In this document: positions 2,455-43,583 of the stretch, one piece after another
Position numbering within the stretch: position 1 is the stretch's first letter
How the letters are laid out: every line of letters begins with the position of its first letter
Assembly (NCBI RefSeq): GCF_002866065.1
Contig: NZ_LNJZ01000001.1
Coordinates: 1 to 64,000 of the forward strand
Direction of reading: 5' to 3'
From: Thiopseudomonas denitrificans
GTDB taxonomy: Bacteria > Pseudomonadota > Gammaproteobacteria > Pseudomonadales > Pseudomonadaceae
DNA: 64,000 bases
The notes under the pieces: generated by a model
The model's database searches: none
Told to the model about the DNA's origin: nothing
The model's input: the letters and a program-made list of their open reading frames with translations, nothing else
Program-made: the position numbers and the translations under genes

Positions 2455-2629
2455 GGCAAAACCCTCCGGAGCGGCGAAAGCGCGACAGCCGGTGGCTGCC
2501 GGATGAAGGCGGGCAGGTCTGCACGCCGTGTTTCTAGTATAGTCTGCAACCAGCAGGCACGTCAGCAGCGTTTGTTTGCCGCACCCGCTGCGACTGCGCA
2601 CCTATTCAATACAAGGGGTCAAACTCAAG

Positions 2630-5359
2630 ATGTCGGATGCACCACTGGTTCTGGTTGATGGTTCTTCTTATCTGTATCGCGCCTACCACGCGCTGCCACC
2701 GCTGACGACATCGACGGGGCAGCCGACCGGTGCGGTCAAGGGCGTGCTCAACATGCTGCGCAGCCTGCGCAAGGATTATCCGGCCAGCGTCATAGTGGTG
2801 GTGTTCGATGCCAAGGGGCCAACCTTCCGCGACCACATGTTCGAGGAATACAAGGCCCAGCGCCCGCCGATGCCGGATGACCTGCGCAGCCAGATCGAAC
2901 CGCTGCACCAGTGCGTGCAGGCGCTGGGTTTCCCGCTGCTCTGCGTGGAAGGTGTGGAAGCGGACGACGTCATCGGTACCCTGGCGCTGCAGGGCGGCAA
3001 CAATGGCCAGCAGGTGGTGATCTCCACCGGCGACAAGGACATGGCCCAGCTGGTCACCGAACGGGTCACCCTGGTCAACACCATGTACCGCACCGCCACC
3101 GATATTGCCGCCGTGCACGAGAAATACGGTATTGGCCCCGAGCTGATCATCGATTTTCTCGCCCTGATGGGTGACAAGGCCGACAACATTCCGGGCGTGC
3201 CCGGGGTGGGCGAGAAGACCGCCACCGGCCTGCTGCAGGGGCTGGGTGACATGGATGCCATCTACGCCAATCTGGACAAGGTGGCGGAGCTGCCGATTCG
3301 TGGCGCGAAAAGCCTGGGTGCCAAACTGGAAGAACACCGCGATGTGGCCTATCTGTCACGTCAGCTAGCCACCATCAAGACCGATGTCGAGCTGGAAGGT
3401 TGCGCTGCCACACTGGCCATGCAACAGCCCGACTATGCGCAGCTGCGCGAGCTGTACCAGCAGATGGAATTCAGAAGCTGGTTGAACGAGGTGGAACAGG
3501 AAGCAGAAGAGGCCGGCGAACCGGTTGTAGCGGCTGAAGAACAGGCCGAGGCCAGCTACAGCACCTTGCTGGAATGGAGCGAGCTGGATGCCTGGCTGGA
3601 GCGTCTGCAGCAAGCGAAAATCTTCGCCTTTGATACCGAAACCACCAGCATCGATGCCCAGCAGGCGCAGCTGGTCGGCATGTCGTTTTCCATCAAGCCG
3701 GGCGAGGCCGCCTATTTGCCGCTGGCGCACAGCTACATGGGCGTGCCGCAGCAGCTGCCGTTCCAGGAAGCGCTGGAGCGCATGCGCCCGCTGCTGGAAA
3801 ACCCCGACATCATCAAGGTGTGCCAGAACGGCAAGTACGACATCAACGTGCTGTACCACCACGGCATCAGTCTGCAGGGCGTCCTGCACGACAGCATGCT
3901 GGCGTCCTATGTGCTCAACTCGACCGTCACGCGTCATAACATGGACGACCTGGCGCAGCACTATCTGAACCGCACCACCATCCCCTTTGAAAGCATTGCC
4001 GGCAAGGGTGCCAAACAGCTGACCTTCGACCAGCTGGACCTTGCGATGGCCGCACCCTATGCGGCGGAAGATGCCGACATCACACTGCAGCTGCACAGCG
4101 CCCTGCAGGAAAGACTGGACGAGATCCCGTCGCTGGCCAGCGTCTATCGCGATATCGAGATGCCGCTGATGCCGGTGCTGGCGCGTATCGAGCGTACCGG
4201 TGCGCTGGTCGATGCCAACCTGCTGGGTCGCCAGAGCCAGGAGCTGGGCGACAAGCTGACCGCCATCGAGCGCGAGGTGTTCGAGATCGCCGGCCAGCCA
4301 TTCAACCTGGCCTCGCCCAAGCAGCTGGGCGAAATTCTCTATGACAAGCTGGGCCTGCCGGTGCTGGCGAAAACCGCCAAGGGCCAGCCCAGCACCGCCG
4401 AAGCCGTGCTGCAACAATTGGCTGATGACGGCCATGAACTGCCGGTGCTGCTGATGGAATACCGCAGCCTGAGCAAGCTGAAAAGCACCTACACCGACCG
4501 CTTGCCCGAGCAGGTCAACCCGCGCACCGGCCGCATTCACACCAGCTACCACCAGGCGGTTACCGCCACCGGGCGGCTGTCATCCAGCGACCCCAACCTG
4601 CAGAACATTCCGGTGCGTACCGCCGAGGGGCGGCGTATTCGCCAGGCCTTCATCGCGCCGCCGGAGCACGTGCTGGTGTCGGCCGACTATTCGCAGATCG
4701 AGCTGCGCATCATGGCCCATCTGGCGCAGGACTCCGGCCTGCTGGAAGCCTTCCGTAACGACCGCGACGTTCACAAGGCCACCGCTGCCGAGGTGTTCGG
4801 CGTGCCGCTGGACGAGGTTTCCAGCGATCAGCGCCGCAACGCCAAGGCGATCAACTTCGGCCTGATCTACGGCATGAGCGCCCATGGCCTGGCCAAGCAG
4901 ATCGGCACCGACCGTGTGGAGGCGCAGGCCTACATCGACCGTTACTTCGTGCGCTATCCGGGCGTGCTCGACTACATGGAGCGCACCCGCAAGCAGGCCG
5001 CCGAGCTGGGCTATGTCGAAACCCTGTTTGGCCGCCGCCTCTACCTACCCGAGATCAAGGCGAAAAACCCGATGATCCGCCGCGCCGCCGAGCGCACCGC
5101 GATCAACGCGCCGATGCAGGGCAGTGCCGCCGACATCATCAAGCGGGCGATGATCGAGATCGATGCATGGCTGCAGGGCTCCGGCCTGCGCGCGCAAGTA
5201 GTGATGCAGGTGCATGACGAGCTGGTGCTGGAAGTGCATCGAGACGATGTCGAAAAGCTCAAGGAAGGCCTGATCCCGCGCATGAGCGCCGCAGCCGAGC
5301 TGGATGTGCCCCTGCTGGTGGAAGCCGGAGTTGGCAATAACTGGGACGAAGCCCACTGA
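2630..5359 (+). CDS. polA: DNA polymerase I
   Basis: Repair and Okazaki-fragment-processing DNA polymerase, 909 residues, close to the usual 928 of E. coli. The three expected parts are in order. The 5'-3' exonuclease comes first (about 1-290, opening [14 protein letters not shown]). The proofreading 3'-5' exonuclease keeps the FDTET acidic motif near 335. The polymerase domain has motif [10 protein letters not shown] (about 684), motif [15 protein letters not shown] (about 735) and motif C QVHDELV (about 861). The ATG at 2630 is selected by homology of the N-terminus; AAGGGG lies upstream. The 3' side carries a REP array and then an ErsA-like sRNA on the same strand, an arrangement parallel to polA-spf in E. 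coli. Confidence 0.97.
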
Positions 5360-5388
5360 CGTCCGGACAATTGGCATTCTGCGCTGTT

Positions 5389-5548
5389 GTAGGTGCGAAT
5401 TTATTCGCACAATTGCGCAGCGTGACCGGGTTTCTTGTGGGTGCGAATTTATTCGCACAATAGTGCAGGGTGGCCGGATTTCTTGTAGGTGCGAATTTAT
5501 TCGCACAATAGCGCCAGTTGTTCGTGTGCGAATGAATTCGCACCTACA
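5389..5548. repeat. REP array with 48-bp tandem units, cluster 2
   Basis: Three head hairpins in direct orientation (5389-5411, 5437-5459, 5485-5507) repeat at exactly 48 bp. An inverted tail follows (5525-5548). All three head cores are GTGCGAATTTATTCGCAC; the second starts GTGGG in place of GTAGG. The filler between heads is also repeated (ACCGGGTTTCTT and GCCGGATTTCTT), so the array grew by tandem duplication. It lies directly after polA. Confidence 0.9.
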
Positions 5549-5706
5549 GGTGTGGTGTTAAAACCGGCCTGCCCGTAATGCAACCCACCGCCATTTCGCT
5601 GTGACGGGAAGCGTGTTCAGGACAACGGTTTACAGGCCGGGCTTTGAATGTGCAGTTTTTCCGTGCCCGGGGTTTTCCGGCTATCTCAGTTTTTTGCAGA
5701 AAAATT

Positions 5707-5733
5707 GAACTTCTCCCGCCGGAGCTGTTCTCA
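5707..5733 (+). promoter_or_regulatory. AlgU (sigma-22/sigma-E)-type promoter of the ErsA-like sRNA
   Basis: GAACTT at 5707-5712, a 16-nt spacer and TCTCA at 5729-5733 match the AlgU/RpoE promoter pattern (GAACTT, 16-17 nt, TCTGA). It would start transcription near 5739-5741, just at the first hairpin of the predicted sRNA. P. aeruginosa ersA is reported to be AlgU-dependent. Confidence 0.65.
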
Positions 5734-5738
5734 TCTTG

Positions 5739-5874
5739 TGTCTGCTTCTGGCAGACAGTTCTCTCCGAACAGATGCGATGAGTTAAGTTGGCAGATCCGC
5801 AGTGTTTTCCCTGTCACTGCGATCCTTGAACTCCGGACCACGCCACTCCCCCGGCGGTATCCGGAGTTTTTTTT
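5739..5874 (+). ncRNA. ersA: ErsA-like regulatory sRNA
   Basis: A predicted sRNA of about 135 nt downstream of polA. ErsA of P. aeruginosa occupies the polA-engB gap, is about 132 nt and uses an AlgU promoter. The sequence folds into a GTCTGC/GCAGAC hairpin (5740-5756), a GTTC/GAAC hairpin exposing a UCUCC loop (5758-5770) and a GCAGTG/CACTGC hairpin with a UUUUCCCUGU loop (5799-5820). It ends in a strong terminator at 5829-5874. Pyrimidine-rich loops of this kind can pair with ribosome sites. Identity rests on position, promoter, length and fold; I cannot align it to the known sequence. The next gene is glcB, not engB. Confidence 0.65.
5829..5874 (+). terminator. Rho-independent terminator of the ErsA-like sRNA
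   Basis: Stem AACTCCGGA (5829-5837) and TCCGGAGTT (5860-5868) run into eight or so T residues. No coding gene ends here, which is what first marks the region as an RNA gene. Confidence 0.8.
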
Positions 5875-5934
5875 GCCTGTGTTGTGTACTTAAGTCGCAG
5901 CTCTTATTTATCCCTGTATTTTTCGCTTCGTTCA

Positions 5935-5960
5935 TGTAGTATGAAACACTTTGCACTACA
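5935..5960. promoter_or_regulatory. RccR-type operator upstream of glcB
   Basis: TGTAGT (5935-5940), 14 nt, ACTACA (5955-5960): the same half-sites and spacing as at pckA and rccR. It ends 52 bp before the glcB start. Reports on P. fluorescens RccR describe control of glcB and pckA through TGTAGT/ACTACA-type sites, so repression of glcB by the rccR product in this window is the natural reading. Confidence 0.75.
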
Positions 5961-6012
5961 TGGCTTCCCGGCCATGTTTTTTGAGGCTTTCATAGCAGTG
6001 AGTGAGGCAATA

Positions 6013-8190
6013 ATGACCGAACGCGTACAAGTAGGCGGCTTGCAAGTCGCCAAAGTCCTTTATGACTTCGTGAATGAACAGGCCATCCCCGGCACCGGCC
6101 TTGACGCCGGCAAGTTCTGGGAAGGTGCTGCACAGGTGTTCAAGGACCTGGCACCGAAAAATCGCGCCCTGCTGGAAAAACGTGACGCCTTGCAAGCAAA
6201 AATTGACGAGTGGCACCTGGCACGCAAAGGCCAGTCCCACGATGCAGCGGCATATAAAGCCTTCCTGCAAGAGATTGGATATTTGCTGCCAGAAGCAGCG
6301 GATTTCCAGGCCAGCACACAGAATGTTGACGAAGAAATTGCGAGCATGGCCGGCCCACAGCTGGTGGTTCCGGTAACCAACGCACGTTTTGCCCTGAACG
6401 CGGCCAACGCCCGCTGGGGTTCCCTGTATGACGCGCTGTACGGCACCGATGCCATCAGCGAGGAAGGTGGCGCTGAAGTCACCAAAGGCTACAACAAGGT
6501 GCGTGGCGACAAGGTCATCGCCTGGGGCCGCAACTTCCTGGATACCGCCGTGCCACTGGCTGCCGGCTCCCATGCCGATGCTGCCGGTTATCGCATCGAG
6601 GGCGGCAAACTGATCGTTGCCATGAAAGGCGGCAGCAACAGCGGCCTGCGCAACGATGCCCAGCTGATTGGCTATAACGGCGAAGCAGGTGCACCCACGT
6701 CCGTGCTGCTGAAGAACAACGGCCTGCACATCGAGATCCAGATCGATGCCAACAGCCCGATTGGCCAGACCGATGCCGCCGGCGTCAAGGACATCATCCT
6801 GGAAGCCGCCATCACCACCATCATCGACTGTGAAGACTCTGTCGCTGCCGTGGATGCCGACGACAAGACGCTGGTCTACCGCAACTGGCTGGGCCTGATG
6901 AAGGGCGATCTGGCCGAGAGCGTAACCAAGGGCGACAAGACCTTCACCCGCGCCATGAACCCGGATCGCGAATACACCGGCCTGAACGGCGATAAAGTTG
7001 TTCTGCATGGCCGCTCCCTGCTGTTTGTGCGTAATGTTGGCCACCTGATGACCAACCCGGCGATTCTCGACGAGCAGGGCAACGAGCTGCCCGAAGGCAT
7101 CATGGACGGGCTGTTCACCGGCCTGATTGCCCTGCACAACCTGAACGGCAACACCAGCCGTGCCAACAGCCGCAAAGGCAGCATGTACATCGTCAAGCCG
7201 AAGATGCACGGACCGGAAGAGGTCGCCTTCGCCAACGAGCTGTTTGCCCGTATCGAAGACGTGCTGGGCATGCAGCGCAATACCCTGAAAATGGGCATCA
7301 TGGACGAAGAGCGCCGCACCACCGTCAACCTGAAAGCCTGTATCGCTGCCGCCAAAGAGCGTGTGGTGTTCATCAATACCGGCTTCCTCGACCGTACCGG
7401 TGACGAAATCCATACCTCCATGGAAGCCGGTGCGATGGTGCGCAAGACCGCCATGCGTGGCGAGAAGTGGATTGCCACCTACGAAGACTGGAACGTGGAC
7501 GTTGGTCTGGCCACCGGCCTGCCCGGCAAGGCACAGATCGGTAAAGGCATGTGGGCCATGCCGGACCTGATGGCAGCCATGCTGGAGCAGAAGATCGGTC
7601 ACGTGAAGGCCGGTGCCAACACCGCCTGGGTTCCATCGCCGACTGCGGCCACCCTGCACGCCACCCACTACCACCAGTACGACGTGTTCGCCCTGCAGCA
7701 AGAGCTGAAGACGCGCCCGCACGCCAACCTGGACGACATCCTGACCATTCCGCTGGCCAAGGACACCAACTGGAGTGCCGAGGAAATCCGCAATGAGCTG
7801 GACAACAACGCGCAAGGCATCCTGGGTTACGTTGTACGCTGGGTCGAGCAGAGCGTCGGCTGTTCCAAGGTGCCGGACATCAACGATGTCGGCCTGATGG
7901 AAGACCGCGCCACCCTGCGCATTTCCAGCCAGCACATGGCCAACTGGCTGCGCCACGGTATCGTTACCGAAGAGCAGATTGTTGAAGCCATGAAGCGCAT
8001 GGCCGAGGTGGTTGACCGTCAGAACGCCGGTGACCCCGAGTACCGCAACATGGCGCCGAACTTCGACGACAGCATCGGCTTCCAGGCCGGTCTGGAGCTG
8101 GTTCTTGAAGGTCGCGCCCAGCCCAATGGCTACACCGAGCCGGTCCTGCACCGTCGCCGCCGCGAGTACAAGGCCAAAAACGGCCTGTAA
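6013..8190 (+). CDS. glcB: Malate synthase G
   Basis: Condenses glyoxylate with acetyl-CoA to malate, the second step of the glyoxylate shunt, in the cytoplasm. The 725-residue length is typical of the G form (E. coli 723). Recognisable stretches are [15 protein letters not shown] (the metal-binding Glu region near 275), [16 protein letters not shown] (the Arg region near 335) and [18 protein letters not shown] near 630, which holds the catalytic Asp. The start at 6013 matches the family N-terminus [18 protein letters not shown]; weak GAGG precedes it. An RccR-type operator upstream suggests shared control with pckA. A terminator follows. It stands alone, without aceA. Confidence 0.95.
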
Positions 8191-30764: not shown

Positions 30765-31421
30765 TTAGTCTTCTTCGATAACCATGTCTTCCGGCAGTTC
30801 GGGCTCGATCAGTTGTAGCCAGGCGGCCAGCTGATCGTAGGCTTCGTCGGTGCCGATGCGCTTGGTGGCGGAAAACAGCTGGATGCCGGCAATGTCGCCC
30901 CACTCATCCTGCAGCTGCTTGCGGGTTTTCTGCAGGGCGCTGCGACCGGCGCCGGGCGTCAGTTTGTCGCATTTGGTCAGCAGGACATGCACTGGCATGC
31001 CGGCGCCTTTGGCCCAGTCCAGCATCATGCGGTCGAAGGGGCTGAAGGGGTGACGGATGTCCATCATCAGCACCACGCCGGTCAGACAGTCGCGCCGGCT
31101 CAGGTAGGCTTCCAGGTGCTTCTGCCAGTGCTGTTTGAGCGGAATCGGCACCTTGGCGTAGCCGTAGCCAGGCAAGTCGACCAGCCGGCGCTGCTCATCC
31201 AGGCTGAAGAAGTTGAGCAGCTGGGTGCGCCCGGGAGTTTTCGAGGTGCGAGCCAGGCTGGCACGGGTCAATGTATTGATCGCGCTGGATTTGCCCGAGT
31301 TGGAACGGCCGACAAAGGCGACCTCAAGGCCCTCGTCCGGCGGGCACTGTTCAACCTTGGCGGCGCTGATCAGGAATTGCGCCTTTTGACACAGGCCGGG
31401 AAGCGGGTTTTTTTGCTGCAT
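30765..31421 (-). CDS. engB: Ribosome biogenesis GTPase EngB (YihA/YsxC)
   Basis: A 218-residue GTPase needed for assembly of the 50S ribosomal subunit. G1 is GRSNSGKSS near 38, G3 DLPGYGYA near 87, G4 TKCDK near 153 and G5 FSATKRIG near 187. The C-terminal extension is acidic ([13 protein letters not shown]). GGAGA precedes the ATG at 31421. It diverges from cytochrome c4, as in Pseudomonas, but its usual other neighbour, ersA-polA, is far away in this genome. Confidence 0.96.
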
Positions 31422-41038: not shown

Positions 41039-43428
41039 TAGAACAGGTCGAACAGGTTGTCTTGAGGAGTCTGCGCGGGTGCTTCTCCACTGTCCTGGCC
41101 GAAGTCGAAGACCGGGCTGAATTCGTCCATGCGTGGGGGCGTATCCTCCTGCTTGAACAGCTCGAAGTAGCTGTTGGCGCTGTTGGCGGAGGCCAGTCTG
41201 CCACTTTCACGGTCAACCCGCAAAACGCTCAGGCCACGCGGCTCGGGCTGGTTGCTGGCCGGTGAGTCGGCCAGCGCCTGGCCCATGTAGTCAACCCAGA
41301 TCGGCAATGAGATGGTGGCGCCGTATTCGCGCCGGCCGAGGGTTTCCGGCTGATCGAAGCCGGCCCAGACCGAGGTCAGCAGGCTGTAATTGTAGCCGAT
41401 GAACCAGCTGTCAAAGGAGTCGTTGGTGGTACCGGTCTTGCCGGCCAGGTCGGTGCGCTTCAGGCTCAGGGCGCGACGGCCGGTGCCGTGCTTGATCACG
41501 TCCTTGAGGATATCTGTCATGAGGTAGGCGGTGCGCTCGTCGATCACCGCTTCGGCCAGTACCGGCTTGCTGTCGGGGTCGTCCGTCTTGCGGGTCTGGG
41601 CCAGTTGCGGGGTGACGGCCGGGCTGGCTGCATAGATGGTGCGCTCGTCCCGGTCACTGATGCTCTGGATGATGTAAGGGTCAACCTTGTAGCCGCCGTT
41701 GGCGAACACTGCCCAGGCTATGGTCAGGTCGATGGGAGTCAGGGTCGCCGAGCCAAGCGATAGTGACAGATTGGGCGGCAGGTCGGTTTTTTTCAGGCCG
41801 AAGTGGCTGATGTAATCACGGGTGTAGGGGATGCCAATATCCTGCAGGATCCGGATGGACACCATATTGCGTGAGCGATACAGGCCTTCGCGCAAGCGGA
41901 TCGGGCCGAGGAAGTTGTTGTCGGAGTTTTTTGGCCGCCAGACTTCTTTCATGCCGGCTTCAAAGATTTCGATGGGTGCGTCATTGATCAGGGTCGCCGG
42001 AGTGTAGCCTGCATCCAGTGCTGCGCTGTAAATGAACGGCTTGAAGCTTGAGCCGGGCTGACGCTGTGCCTGGGTGGCCCGGTTGTAGTGGCTGTGCTCG
42101 AAGGACAGGCCGCCGACCAGCGCGCGAATGGCTCCGTCATGGGGATTGAGGGATACCAGTGAAGCCTGGATTTTCGGCAGCTGGGAGAAGGCCAGTTTGC
42201 CATCTGCGCCTTGCTCAACGCGAATCAGGTCGCCGACGCTGGCGACAGCGGCGGGATTGCGTGGTGACGCGCCACGACTGGAGTTGCTGAGGAAAGGAGC
42301 TGCCCAGCGCATGCTTTGCCAGTCAACATGCTCTTCGCTGCCGTCGGCCAGCATGACAAAAATCCCGTCGCTGGCCACCGCACTGACAATGGCCGGAATG
42401 AACTGGTTGATGCGTTTGGTGTTGCGCAGCGCGCTTTGCCAGTCGCCGCGTTTTTCTATCCTGGCTTCCGGTCCGCGATAACCGTGGCGCCGGTCATAGT
42501 CGGTGAGGCCACGAAAAACTGCCTGCTGGGCATGGTTTTGCAGGTCGGCGGGTACGGTGGTACGCACATTGAGGCCGTCGGTGTAGGCATCGCTGCCGTA
42601 CCGGTTGATCATTTCAAGGCGTACCATCTCCGCGACATAGGGGGCATAGACATCGGGGCTTTTGATGTGTAGCTTGGCATCCTGTTCGGCATTTACCGCT
42701 TCTTCGTACTGCTGCTGGTCGATGTGCCCGAGCCTCAGCATGCGACCGAGAATCCAGTCGCGCCGCTCCATGCTGCGTGCAGGGTTGGCAAGCGGGTTAT
42801 AGCGCGAAGGCGCTTTCGGCAAGCCGGCGAGCATGGCCATTTGTGCCAGGCTTAGATCTTTTATTGACTTGCCGTAATACACGTTGGCTGCCGCTTCGAT
42901 ACCATAGGCGCGGTTGCCCAGGTAGATCTTGTTGACGTACAACTCAAGGATTTCGTTTTTGCTCAGTTCACGCTCGATTTGCAGGGCCAGAAGGATTTCA
43001 TTGGCCTTGCGGGAAAAACTGCGCTCACTGGTCAAAAAGAAGTTTTTCGCCACCTGCATGGTGATGGTGCTGCCGCCAGTCTGGATACGACCAGTCTTGA
43101 CCAGCTGGGCTGCTGCCCGCAAAAGGCTGCCTGGATCAACGCCATGGTGTTTAGTGAAGTTGTCGTCTTCTGCTGACAGCAAAGCATTGATAAAATCCTG
43201 CGGGACTTCATCAAAGCGGATCGGAGTGCGGCGCATTTCGCCAAACTCCTCGATAAGCTGGTCGTCTTCGCTGTAGACTCGCAAAGGCATCTGTAGTTCC
43301 ACGTGACGCAGCGATTCGACAGATGGCAAATTGGGGCTGAGATAGAGGTAGGCACCTGCCAAACTGAGTACTACTCCGCAAATTAAAGCAATGGCTAGCG
43401 CGAACAGGGACTTTACGACGAGTATCAA
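41038..43428 (-). CDS. ponA: Penicillin-binding protein 1A
   Basis: Bifunctional peptidoglycan synthase, anchored in the inner membrane: transglycosylase then transpeptidase. 796 residues from TTG 43428, chosen because GGAATAAA precedes it and MILVVKSLFALAIALICGVVLSLAGAYLYL then aligns with the family start. An ATG at 43500 would add 24 residues. Transglycosylase motifs: EDDNFTKHHGVDP, GGSTITMQVAKN, ILELYVNKIYLGNRAYG. Transpeptidase motifs: active Ser in QPGSSFKPF, SRN in YRSRNMVS, and KTGTT near the C-terminus. It diverges from pilM, as in P. aeruginosa. Confidence 0.94.
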   Translation of the reverse strand: MILVVKSLFALAIALICGVVLSLAGAYLYLSPNLPSVESLRHVELQMPLRVYSEDDQLIEEFGEMRRTPIRFDEVPQDFINALLSAEDDNFTKHHGVDPGSLLRAAAQLVKTGRIQTGGSTITMQVAKNFFLTSERSFSRKANEILLALQIERELSKNEILELYVNKIYLGNRAYGIEAAANVYYGKSIKDLSLAQMAMLAGLPKAPSRYNPLANPARSMERRDWILGRMLRLGHIDQQQYEEAVNAEQDAKLHIKSPDVYAPYVAEMVRLEMINRYGSDAYTDGLNVRTTVPADLQNHAQQAVFRGLTDYDRRHGYRGPEARIEKRGDWQSALRNTKRINQFIPAIVSAVASDGIFVMLADGSEEHVDWQSMRWAAPFLSNSSRGASPRNPAAVASVGDLIRVEQGADGKLAFSQLPKIQASLVSLNPHDGAIRALVGGLSFEHSHYNRATQAQRQPGSSFKPFIYSAALDAGYTPATLINDAPIEIFEAGMKEVWRPKNSDNNFLGPIRLREGLYRSRNMVSIRILQDIGIPYTRDYISHFGLKKTDLPPNLSLSLGSATLTPIDLTIAWAVFANGGYKVDPYIIQSISDRDERTIYAASPAVTPQLAQTRKTDDPDSKPVLAEAVIDERTAYLMTDILKDVIKHGTGRRALSLKRTDLAGKTGTTNDSFDSWFIGYNYSLLTSVWAGFDQPETLGRREYGATISLPIWVDYMGQALADSPASNQPEPRGLSVLRVDRESGRLASANSANSYFELFKQEDTPPRMDEFSPVFDFGQDSGEAPAQTPQDNLFDLF

Positions 43429-43583
43429 GGTAGATTTATTCCCAATAAAAATGAATGGGTTAGAGGGGCTAGGGGTGCGAGATACAAAATTACGGCACAT
43501 TATAAGCGCTTTTTTTGTCCGGAAGCCATTTGCGATTCGGCTCAGAGTGGTATTTAATGTGGATAACCATAAAACGTCTGTAA

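Follow-up and report, generated by a model that had tools for sequence, protein, structure and literature searches.

The closest described relatives of the RNA considered here are small RNAs encoded beside polA. ErsA of Pseudomonas (Pseudomon-1, Rfam RF01719), a regulatory RNA induced under envelope stress, lies after polA on the same strand, behind an AlgU-type promoter motif, and has a core that includes GUUGGCAGA, a middle hairpin and a terminator with a C-rich loop and a U tail; all of these recur in the locus described below. According to the portions of the literature available, ErsA of P. aeruginosa is sigma-22 dependent and represses algC together with Hfq (PMC7565897, PMC8395346, PMC6321483), and represses oprD with Hfq as well (PMC7264166). 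The available text of PMC5819304 reports an effect on amrZ that is Hfq-independent, predicts that ErsA nucleotides 26-56 bind the amrZ mRNA, and states that changing both amrZ sites abolished ErsA binding in vitro.

Part of a review (PMC8395346) states that ErsA was originally recognised as a functional orthologue of Spot 42, and Spot 42 (spf) of E. coli is likewise placed after polA in the account given by PMC3771888. That account describes sX13 of Xanthomonas as a further RNA after polA, with three stem-loops that have C-rich loops, as in the present RNA; as far as a comparison by description goes, sX13 differs in being reported as Hfq-independent with homologues only in the Xanthomonadaceae (PMC3771888, in the part available). 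The same source notes small RNAs of the polA locus in Xanthomonas, E. coli and the alphaproteobacteria and asks about other bacteria (PMC3771888, in part). We found no paper in the open-licence literature, within the portions available, that draws a wider link between the polA loci of ErsA, sX13 and Spot 42; the nearest are PMC3771888 and a review (PMC10306973).

The window is a stretch of 64,000 nucleotides of Thiopseudomonas denitrificans (contig NZ_LNJZ01000001.1, positions 1 to 64,000), in which the initial annotation had proposed an ErsA-like small RNA after polA. The position of the RNA relative to polA is as for ErsA, with both on the + strand. The features discussed are as follows.

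2576-5359, + strand: polA, DNA polymerase I (NCBIfam TIGR00593, 956.5 bits, cut-off 600)
5393-5543, + strand: four REP-like palindromes GTGCGAATNNATTCGCAC separating polA from the RNA (pattern search)
5707-5733, + strand: AlgU/sigma-E type promoter motif GAACTT-N16-TCTCA (pattern count against shuffles; copies in the same genus)
5739-5874, + strand: putative ersA-like small RNA gene, start placed from the promoter and end from the T run (RF01719, model R1, fold z-score)
5739-5757, + strand: 5' hairpin of 8 pairs (predicted fold; placed like the first hairpin of ErsA, sequence unlike)
5758-5770, + strand: small hairpin with loop UCUCC at 5762-5766 (predicted fold)
5780-5796, + strand: conserved core GAGUUAAGUUGGCAGAU (alignment with ErsA; counterpart of the published target-binding stretch)
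5794-5824, + strand: middle hairpin with pyrimidine-rich loop UUUUCCCUGU (predicted fold; compensatory changes in helix 4)
5828-5874, + strand: intrinsic terminator with C-rich loop ACUCCCCC and eight T at 5867-5874 (fold; compensatory changes in helices 5 and 6)
5932-6012, + strand: conserved glcB leader with palindrome ATGTAGTAT-N10-GCACTACAT, the palindrome at 5932-5960 (genome pattern search, fetched loci)
6013-8190, + strand: glcB, malate synthase G (NCBIfam TIGR01345, 1212.4 bits, cut-off 989.15)
30798-31421, - strand: engB (GTPase YihA/YsxC), the usual other neighbour of ErsA (TIGR03598, 233.8 bits, cut-off 124.45; tblastn with PA7 EngB, 72%)

Similarity to ErsA in a covariance search had been named beforehand as one of the points on which the reading would stand or fall, and it is found with two models. 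The Rfam model RF01719 matches 5773-5882 at 44.9 bits. This falls short of the gathering score of 50 bits, so that a default Rfam scan of the window omits ErsA and, by Rfam's own cut-off, the RNA is not a member of the family. The shortfall is common in the genus, where the other genomes score 63.7 (G001), 40.1 (G003) and 34.0 bits (G002); only G001 passes, and the threshold thus misses the RNA in three of the four genomes. At E below 1e-4, RF01719 has a match in 45 of 47 genomes of the family (G000-G046). Over the organism's own genome (2.84 Mb) it gives two matches, the window RNA being the better (E 1.8e-7) and the other standing at E 8.5. With the limit set at E 10, some match turns up in 13 of 14 control genomes as well, none above the cut-off, and a stricter search leaves a match in 2 of the 14, so weak RF01719 matches mean little.

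The second model, R1, was built from 26 hand-picked ErsA sequences of other Pseudomonadaceae genera, with the window's own genus held out. Near-duplicates, two sequences from outside the family (L127 and L128) and several rows from within it, including the diverged L119, L120 and L121, were also left out, and the diverged and held-out rows are still recovered. R1 matches the window RNA at 47.8 bits (E 1.2e-7 in 825,159 bases from 97 sources) over model positions 1-137; the match covers 5749-5882, and the first 10 nt of the RNA lie outside it. In the organism's own genome the window RNA is again the best match (E 4.1e-7), the next having E 0.19. Among the 80 best polA loci fetched, R1 has a match downstream of polA in 77. 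The three without one are L099, L070, which ends 225 nt after polA, and L110, from a Marinobacter metagenome-assembled genome. L099 is from Pseudomonas helleri, where no R1 match is seen in the 4 kb after polA (position 4594 onward).

The window RNA is thus very probably a diverged orthologue of ErsA, judged from sequence comparison: the orthology rests on the genus-mate above the cut-off, on a gene order in common with Denitrificimonas, and on the held-out model. The competing interpretation is that it is a C-rich-loop small RNA that sits after polA and is not ErsA by descent but a polA-linked RNA in its own right, as sX13 of Xanthomonas is described to be, its likeness arising from the C-rich loops and the terminator. 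The Rfam score below threshold fits this, as does the fact that the terminator supplies part of any match, and C-rich-loop RNAs after polA are also found in other gammaproteobacterial families (28 class-level loci at 29.7-45.8 bits with model R3, described below). Against it, the core GUUGGCAGA is retained in the window and in three genus-mates and is absent from the 18 class-level RNAs checked; G001, whose PolA tail is 85% identical, passes the Rfam cut-off; and in Denitrificimonas a clear ErsA (90.3 bits) stands in the same polA-ersA-glcB order. Descent from something other than ErsA is therefore unlikely, being already largely refuted by the genus-mate above the cut-off.

Other RNA families give little in this region. 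Spot 42 is not among the seven Rfam matches up to E 10 in 5400-6100, and no Rfam family named sX13 appears in the Rfam scans of the window or of the order-level and class-level loci. The anti-hemB family (RF02837), known from Burkholderia, matches the window weakly (18.2 bits, E 0.12, cut-off 49.5) compared with its matches in class-level loci, which reach 58.4 bits.

The AlgU-type promoter proposed after polA is confirmed as a motif at 5707-5733, with GAACTT at 5707-5712, a spacer of 16 nt and TCTCA at 5729-5733; it begins 347 nt from the end of polA. One copy of the strict pattern GAACTTN{16,17}TCTSA is present in the 64 kb of the window, where 0.06 are expected, and 5 of 100 shuffles contain it; the loose pattern GAACTTN{15,18}TCWNA likewise has one copy, for 0.33 expected, with 28 of 100 shuffles containing it. 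Since shuffles also yield the pattern, the motif alone is weak evidence, and it is the same place in three genus-mates that carries weight: GAACTT-N16-TCTGA stands upstream of the RNA in all three same-genus genomes searched. A sigma-22 (AlgU) promoter motif is among the features of ErsA, and the motif, as predicted from sequence, is present here. Across the family, a loose GAAC..-N16/17-TC promoter, which lies outside the model, is found just upstream of the R1 match in all 77 polA loci that have one; a stricter pattern is absent from 4 of 46 ErsA rows. The -10 element is TCAGA in 70 of the 77, from which TCTCA in the window deviates. A generic scan finds no sigma-70 type promoter in 5360-6015.

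These promoters bear on the view that the hairpins are simply the 3' end, or terminator region, of the polA transcript and have no promoter of their own. RNAs derived from 3' untranslated regions are a known kind, and polA is on the same strand. The promoter motif stands at the right distance in the 77 R1-matching polA loci (by the loose pattern) and in the three genus-mates, however, and four REP-like elements lie between polA and the RNA, so that this origin is very unlikely. The REP-like palindrome GTGCGAATNNATTCGCAC is present in 25 copies in the window with no more than one mismatch (2071-57461), compared to a mean of 0.00 in shuffles, and the repeats may be the cause of the long gap between polA and the RNA.

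The sequence 5739-5875 folds at -51.6 kcal/mol (z -4.14), and none of 200 shuffles is as stable. Between its predicted start at 5739-5740 and the end of the T run, the RNA has the length of about 135 nt originally proposed. Of the three hairpins and a terminator that had been described, the terminator stands, and the hairpin count does not: the predicted fold contains four good hairpins with a weak fifth between them. The terminator hairpin proper covers 5828-5869 and is followed by T to 5874, which is the expected Hfq-binding tail; this terminator is missing from the list of a generic scan. The stem of the small hairpin at 5758-5770 shows no conservation in the alignment with genus-mates. Its loop sequence UCUCC was placed by eye in the region of the GCUCC of ErsA, and the model alignment places it differently.

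Two-sided changes are seen in 21 of 27 base pairs in an alignment of 20 sequences including the window, with 95.8% of cells paired, and none of 500 shuffles is as good; the result is favoured by the procedure, since the model guided the alignment and was itself built with 16 of the 20 rows. Slid controls reach 31-60% paired. The stems of the middle hairpin and the terminator are, on this comparison of sequences, maintained through compensatory changes.

The core GAGUUAAGUUGGCAGAU at 5780-5796 corresponds to GUGUUUAGUGUUGGCAGAU of ErsA and, in the model alignment, is two bases shorter; within it GUUGGCAGA is identical in all four members of the genus aligned. When nucleotides 26-56 of ErsA are mapped onto the window core by counting from the probable start, GUUGGCAGAU of the target-binding stretch of P. 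aeruginosa is retained and the remainder is changed. The window RNA thus differs from ErsA in its 5' hairpin, in UCUCC for GCUCC, in its -10 TCTCA and in the shorter core, as well as in the replacement of engB by glcB, in the REP-like repeats of the gap, and in scoring 44.9 bits against a cut-off of 50.

An open reading frame of 81 codons (5648-5893) overlaps the RNA and is judged non-coding, since several insertions and deletions set the same-genus sequences apart from it.

The initial annotation had engB lost as a neighbour, and it is indeed not adjacent, lying about 25 kb from the RNA, but it is not gone from the genome, having moved to 30798-31421. The absence of engB beside ErsA is not unique to the window. 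The glcB gene is a new neighbour relative to Pseudomonas, as had been suggested, but not one particular to this organism: by tblastn with glcB and PolA the order polA-ersA-glcB is also present in the genus-mates G001 and G002 (L113 and L114), and by tblastn in Denitrificimonas caeni and near relatives (L036, L029, L033, L024 and L025). The contig of the third genus-mate stops shortly beyond the RNA.

The glcB gene seems to have control of its own. The palindrome ATGTAGTAT-N10-GCACTACAT in its leader is present as a pattern in 26 of 57 genomes, including the organism's own. Of 12 loci fetched for it, seven have glcB directly downstream; glcB was not found in the other five. In five of the seven, glcB and its palindrome are on a different contig from ErsA. 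The arms are 14 nt apart in the window's genus and in Denitrificimonas, and the palindrome is likely to be an operator of glcB. Because it precedes glcB also where ErsA is on another contig, glcB and the RNA are probably separate units. A terminator-like hairpin followed by a T run (window 5958-5977) shares sequence with the right arm of the palindrome. The genus-mate L113 has a compensatory change in this hairpin, and an attenuator of glcB at 5958-5977 is possible.

The RNA itself might be thought a leader or attenuator of glcB, as it lies directly upstream of it on the same strand. Its strong terminator nevertheless ends 138 nt before the glcB start, glcB has its own palindrome, kept in five genomes where ErsA is on another contig, and among the 80 polA loci engB is within the fetched stretch in 60 (some of the other 20 stretches end early) whereas glcB is found in 2. 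A role for the RNA as glcB leader is extremely unlikely.

Returning to the ErsA reading, the genome encodes the expected machinery. AlgU/RpoE is present (TIGR02939, 315 bits, cut-off 236) and is immediately followed by an RseA_N (MucA-like) protein (39 bits, cut-off 24); the latter scores 45 bits with the RseA equivalog model, below the cut-off of 263. GAACTT-N16-TCAAT stands upstream of algU in this genome, which fits an autoregulated AlgU gene, as expected. Hfq is encoded (101 bits, cut-off 27), and there are four OprD-domain matches (OprD-type porins). An AlgC-like mutase is recognised from its PGM domain and from an ArgB-like gene directly downstream, although the mutase reaches no NCBIfam equivalog cut-off; the ArgB-like protein, incomplete at the end of the locus, scores 144.9 bits (cut-off 151.3). 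Hosts of ErsA likewise have AlgU/RpoE, a MucA-like protein, Hfq and an AlgC-like mutase. Taken together, the covariance searches, synteny with polA, the promoter motif and the encoded AlgU/RpoE, MucA-like protein and Hfq support the ErsA-like reading.

A mode of action can be proposed in which envelope stress leads the MucA-like anti-sigma factor to free AlgU, and RNA polymerase with AlgU would start at about 5740 and stop at the terminator to give an RNA of about 135 nt. Hfq would bind the U tail, and UCUCC with the GAGUUAAGUUGGCAGAU stretch would pair with mRNAs around their translation starts, and so alter how envelope and exopolysaccharide genes are translated. The dependence on AlgU and on Hfq, like the mode of action, is inferred by analogy with P. 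aeruginosa, and the window RNA is probably an AlgU-driven and Hfq-assisted antisense RNA on that analogy.

Candidate targets were compared by folding duplexes between the core and translation starts, a method that ignores accessibility, with 70 starts from the window as background. Starts tried include algC (the long form and three internal starts), those in the four OprD loci, glcB and others. The duplexes with algC and oprD-type starts have energies within the background range, accessibility being ignored. By the same duplex folding, blind to accessibility, background starts are as strong as hfq in 36 of 68 cases, algU and mucA in 31 of 68 each, and glcB in 61 of 68; no target stood out among the starts of real genes. 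A 106-aa open reading frame in the hfq locus, on the strand opposite hfq, forms a stronger duplex than all 70 background starts and was set aside as a chance reading frame. Five short sequences complementary to the core and the UCUCC region have no occurrence in the window other than on the antisense strand of the RNA gene.

If the assignment is right, a small-genome genus of the Pseudomonadaceae also has this known stress-response RNA, in a diverged form. The window copy is itself ordinary; of more interest is that such RNAs recur at the polA-engB spot. Searched over 390 genomes of the order, R1 matches 35 at E 0.01, and 17 of these lie outside the family; the remaining 355 are without a match under strict filters, so that only a minority of the order is seen to carry such an RNA. 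In 12 of the 17 matches outside the family we find both the core (CUCC...GUGUUUAGUGUUGRY) and a GAAC-type promoter, a pattern with a background of 59 in 2752 tiles of 85 nt from the order-level loci. The RNA lies directly after polA (68-426 nt) in 9 of these 12 loci; of the other three, two lack PolA within the sequence fetched and one is on a contig that stops too early. None of the 12 scanned reaches the Rfam cut-off, and at a laxer limit two give RF01719 at 36.5-40.7 bits. Common descent of these 12 RNAs with ErsA is likely from their sequences, because they have the same core, the same promoter motif and mostly the same place.

Four genomes of another family each carry two ErsA-like RNAs in tandem, spaced by about 200 nt and both preceded by a GAACTT promoter motif of their own. 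These tandem RNAs after polA are located as follows.

L166, 4164-4660
L167, 3806-4152
L168, 3302-3645
L169, 3406-3737

L166 also has a weak third copy (24.5 bits), before which no such promoter motif is seen. The five order-level matches L173, L175, L176, L178 and L180 have neither promoter nor core and were set aside as likely chance (5 of 17). A model R2, based on a simple alignment across several families, retained no more than 5 base pairs and was abandoned.

A broader model, R3, was made from a model-guided alignment and run over 369 genomes of the class. It matches 67 of them at E 0.01, most weakly and many through the terminator part only, and since R3 is loose its matches were judged by position beside polA, which lies outside the model, for the 28 best-scoring loci outside the family. 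In 15 of these 28 an RNA lies 78-444 nt after polA on the same strand, and engB is on its far side in all 15. The loci with C-rich-loop RNAs in the polA-engB gap are these.

L200, L201, L202
L205, L206, L207, L208
L211, L213
L215, L216, L217
L222, L223, L227

PolA is absent from the stretch examined in 12 of the 28, and the match in L226, at 1051 nt from polA, is counted as non-adjacent. When a fairly strict GAAC promoter pattern is applied to the 480 nt that follow polA, 8 of the 16 class-level loci with PolA contain it. None of the 18 class-level RNAs checked has the exact core GUUGGCAGA, and one of them has a shorter GUUGGUA. Rfam cut-offs are reached in 2 of 20 class-level loci scanned, both for anti-hemB (RF02837), and one of these (L206) is in the polA-engB gap; at a laxer limit five loci all give anti-hemB at 34.0-43.7 bits, and three of them RF01719 at 29.5-35 bits as well. 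The class-level RNAs have the same place and a similar architecture with no common core, and their common descent is unproven.

The set of similar RNAs at the polA spot is thus wider than ErsA and largely unannotated. A possible scenario, which we hold tentatively, is that the polA-engB gap is the old home of a single lineage of small RNAs, controlled by envelope stress and bearing C-rich loops, which would be older than the split of the Pseudomonadales from other Gammaproteobacteria. Its descendants would be ErsA, the order-level RNAs (some in tandem), the unannotated RNAs with C-rich loops that follow polA in other families, and perhaps anti-hemB and sX13. In the lineage of the window, engB would have moved and glcB replaced it, the RNA staying with polA. 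If the RNAs do share ancestry, one chromosomal spot could be used to find stress-related small RNAs in many unstudied bacteria.

Elsewhere in the window, we note that the Rfam family asponA (RF02812), an antisense RNA of ponA, has a match at 43156-43449 with 125.3 bits, above its cut-off of 113.
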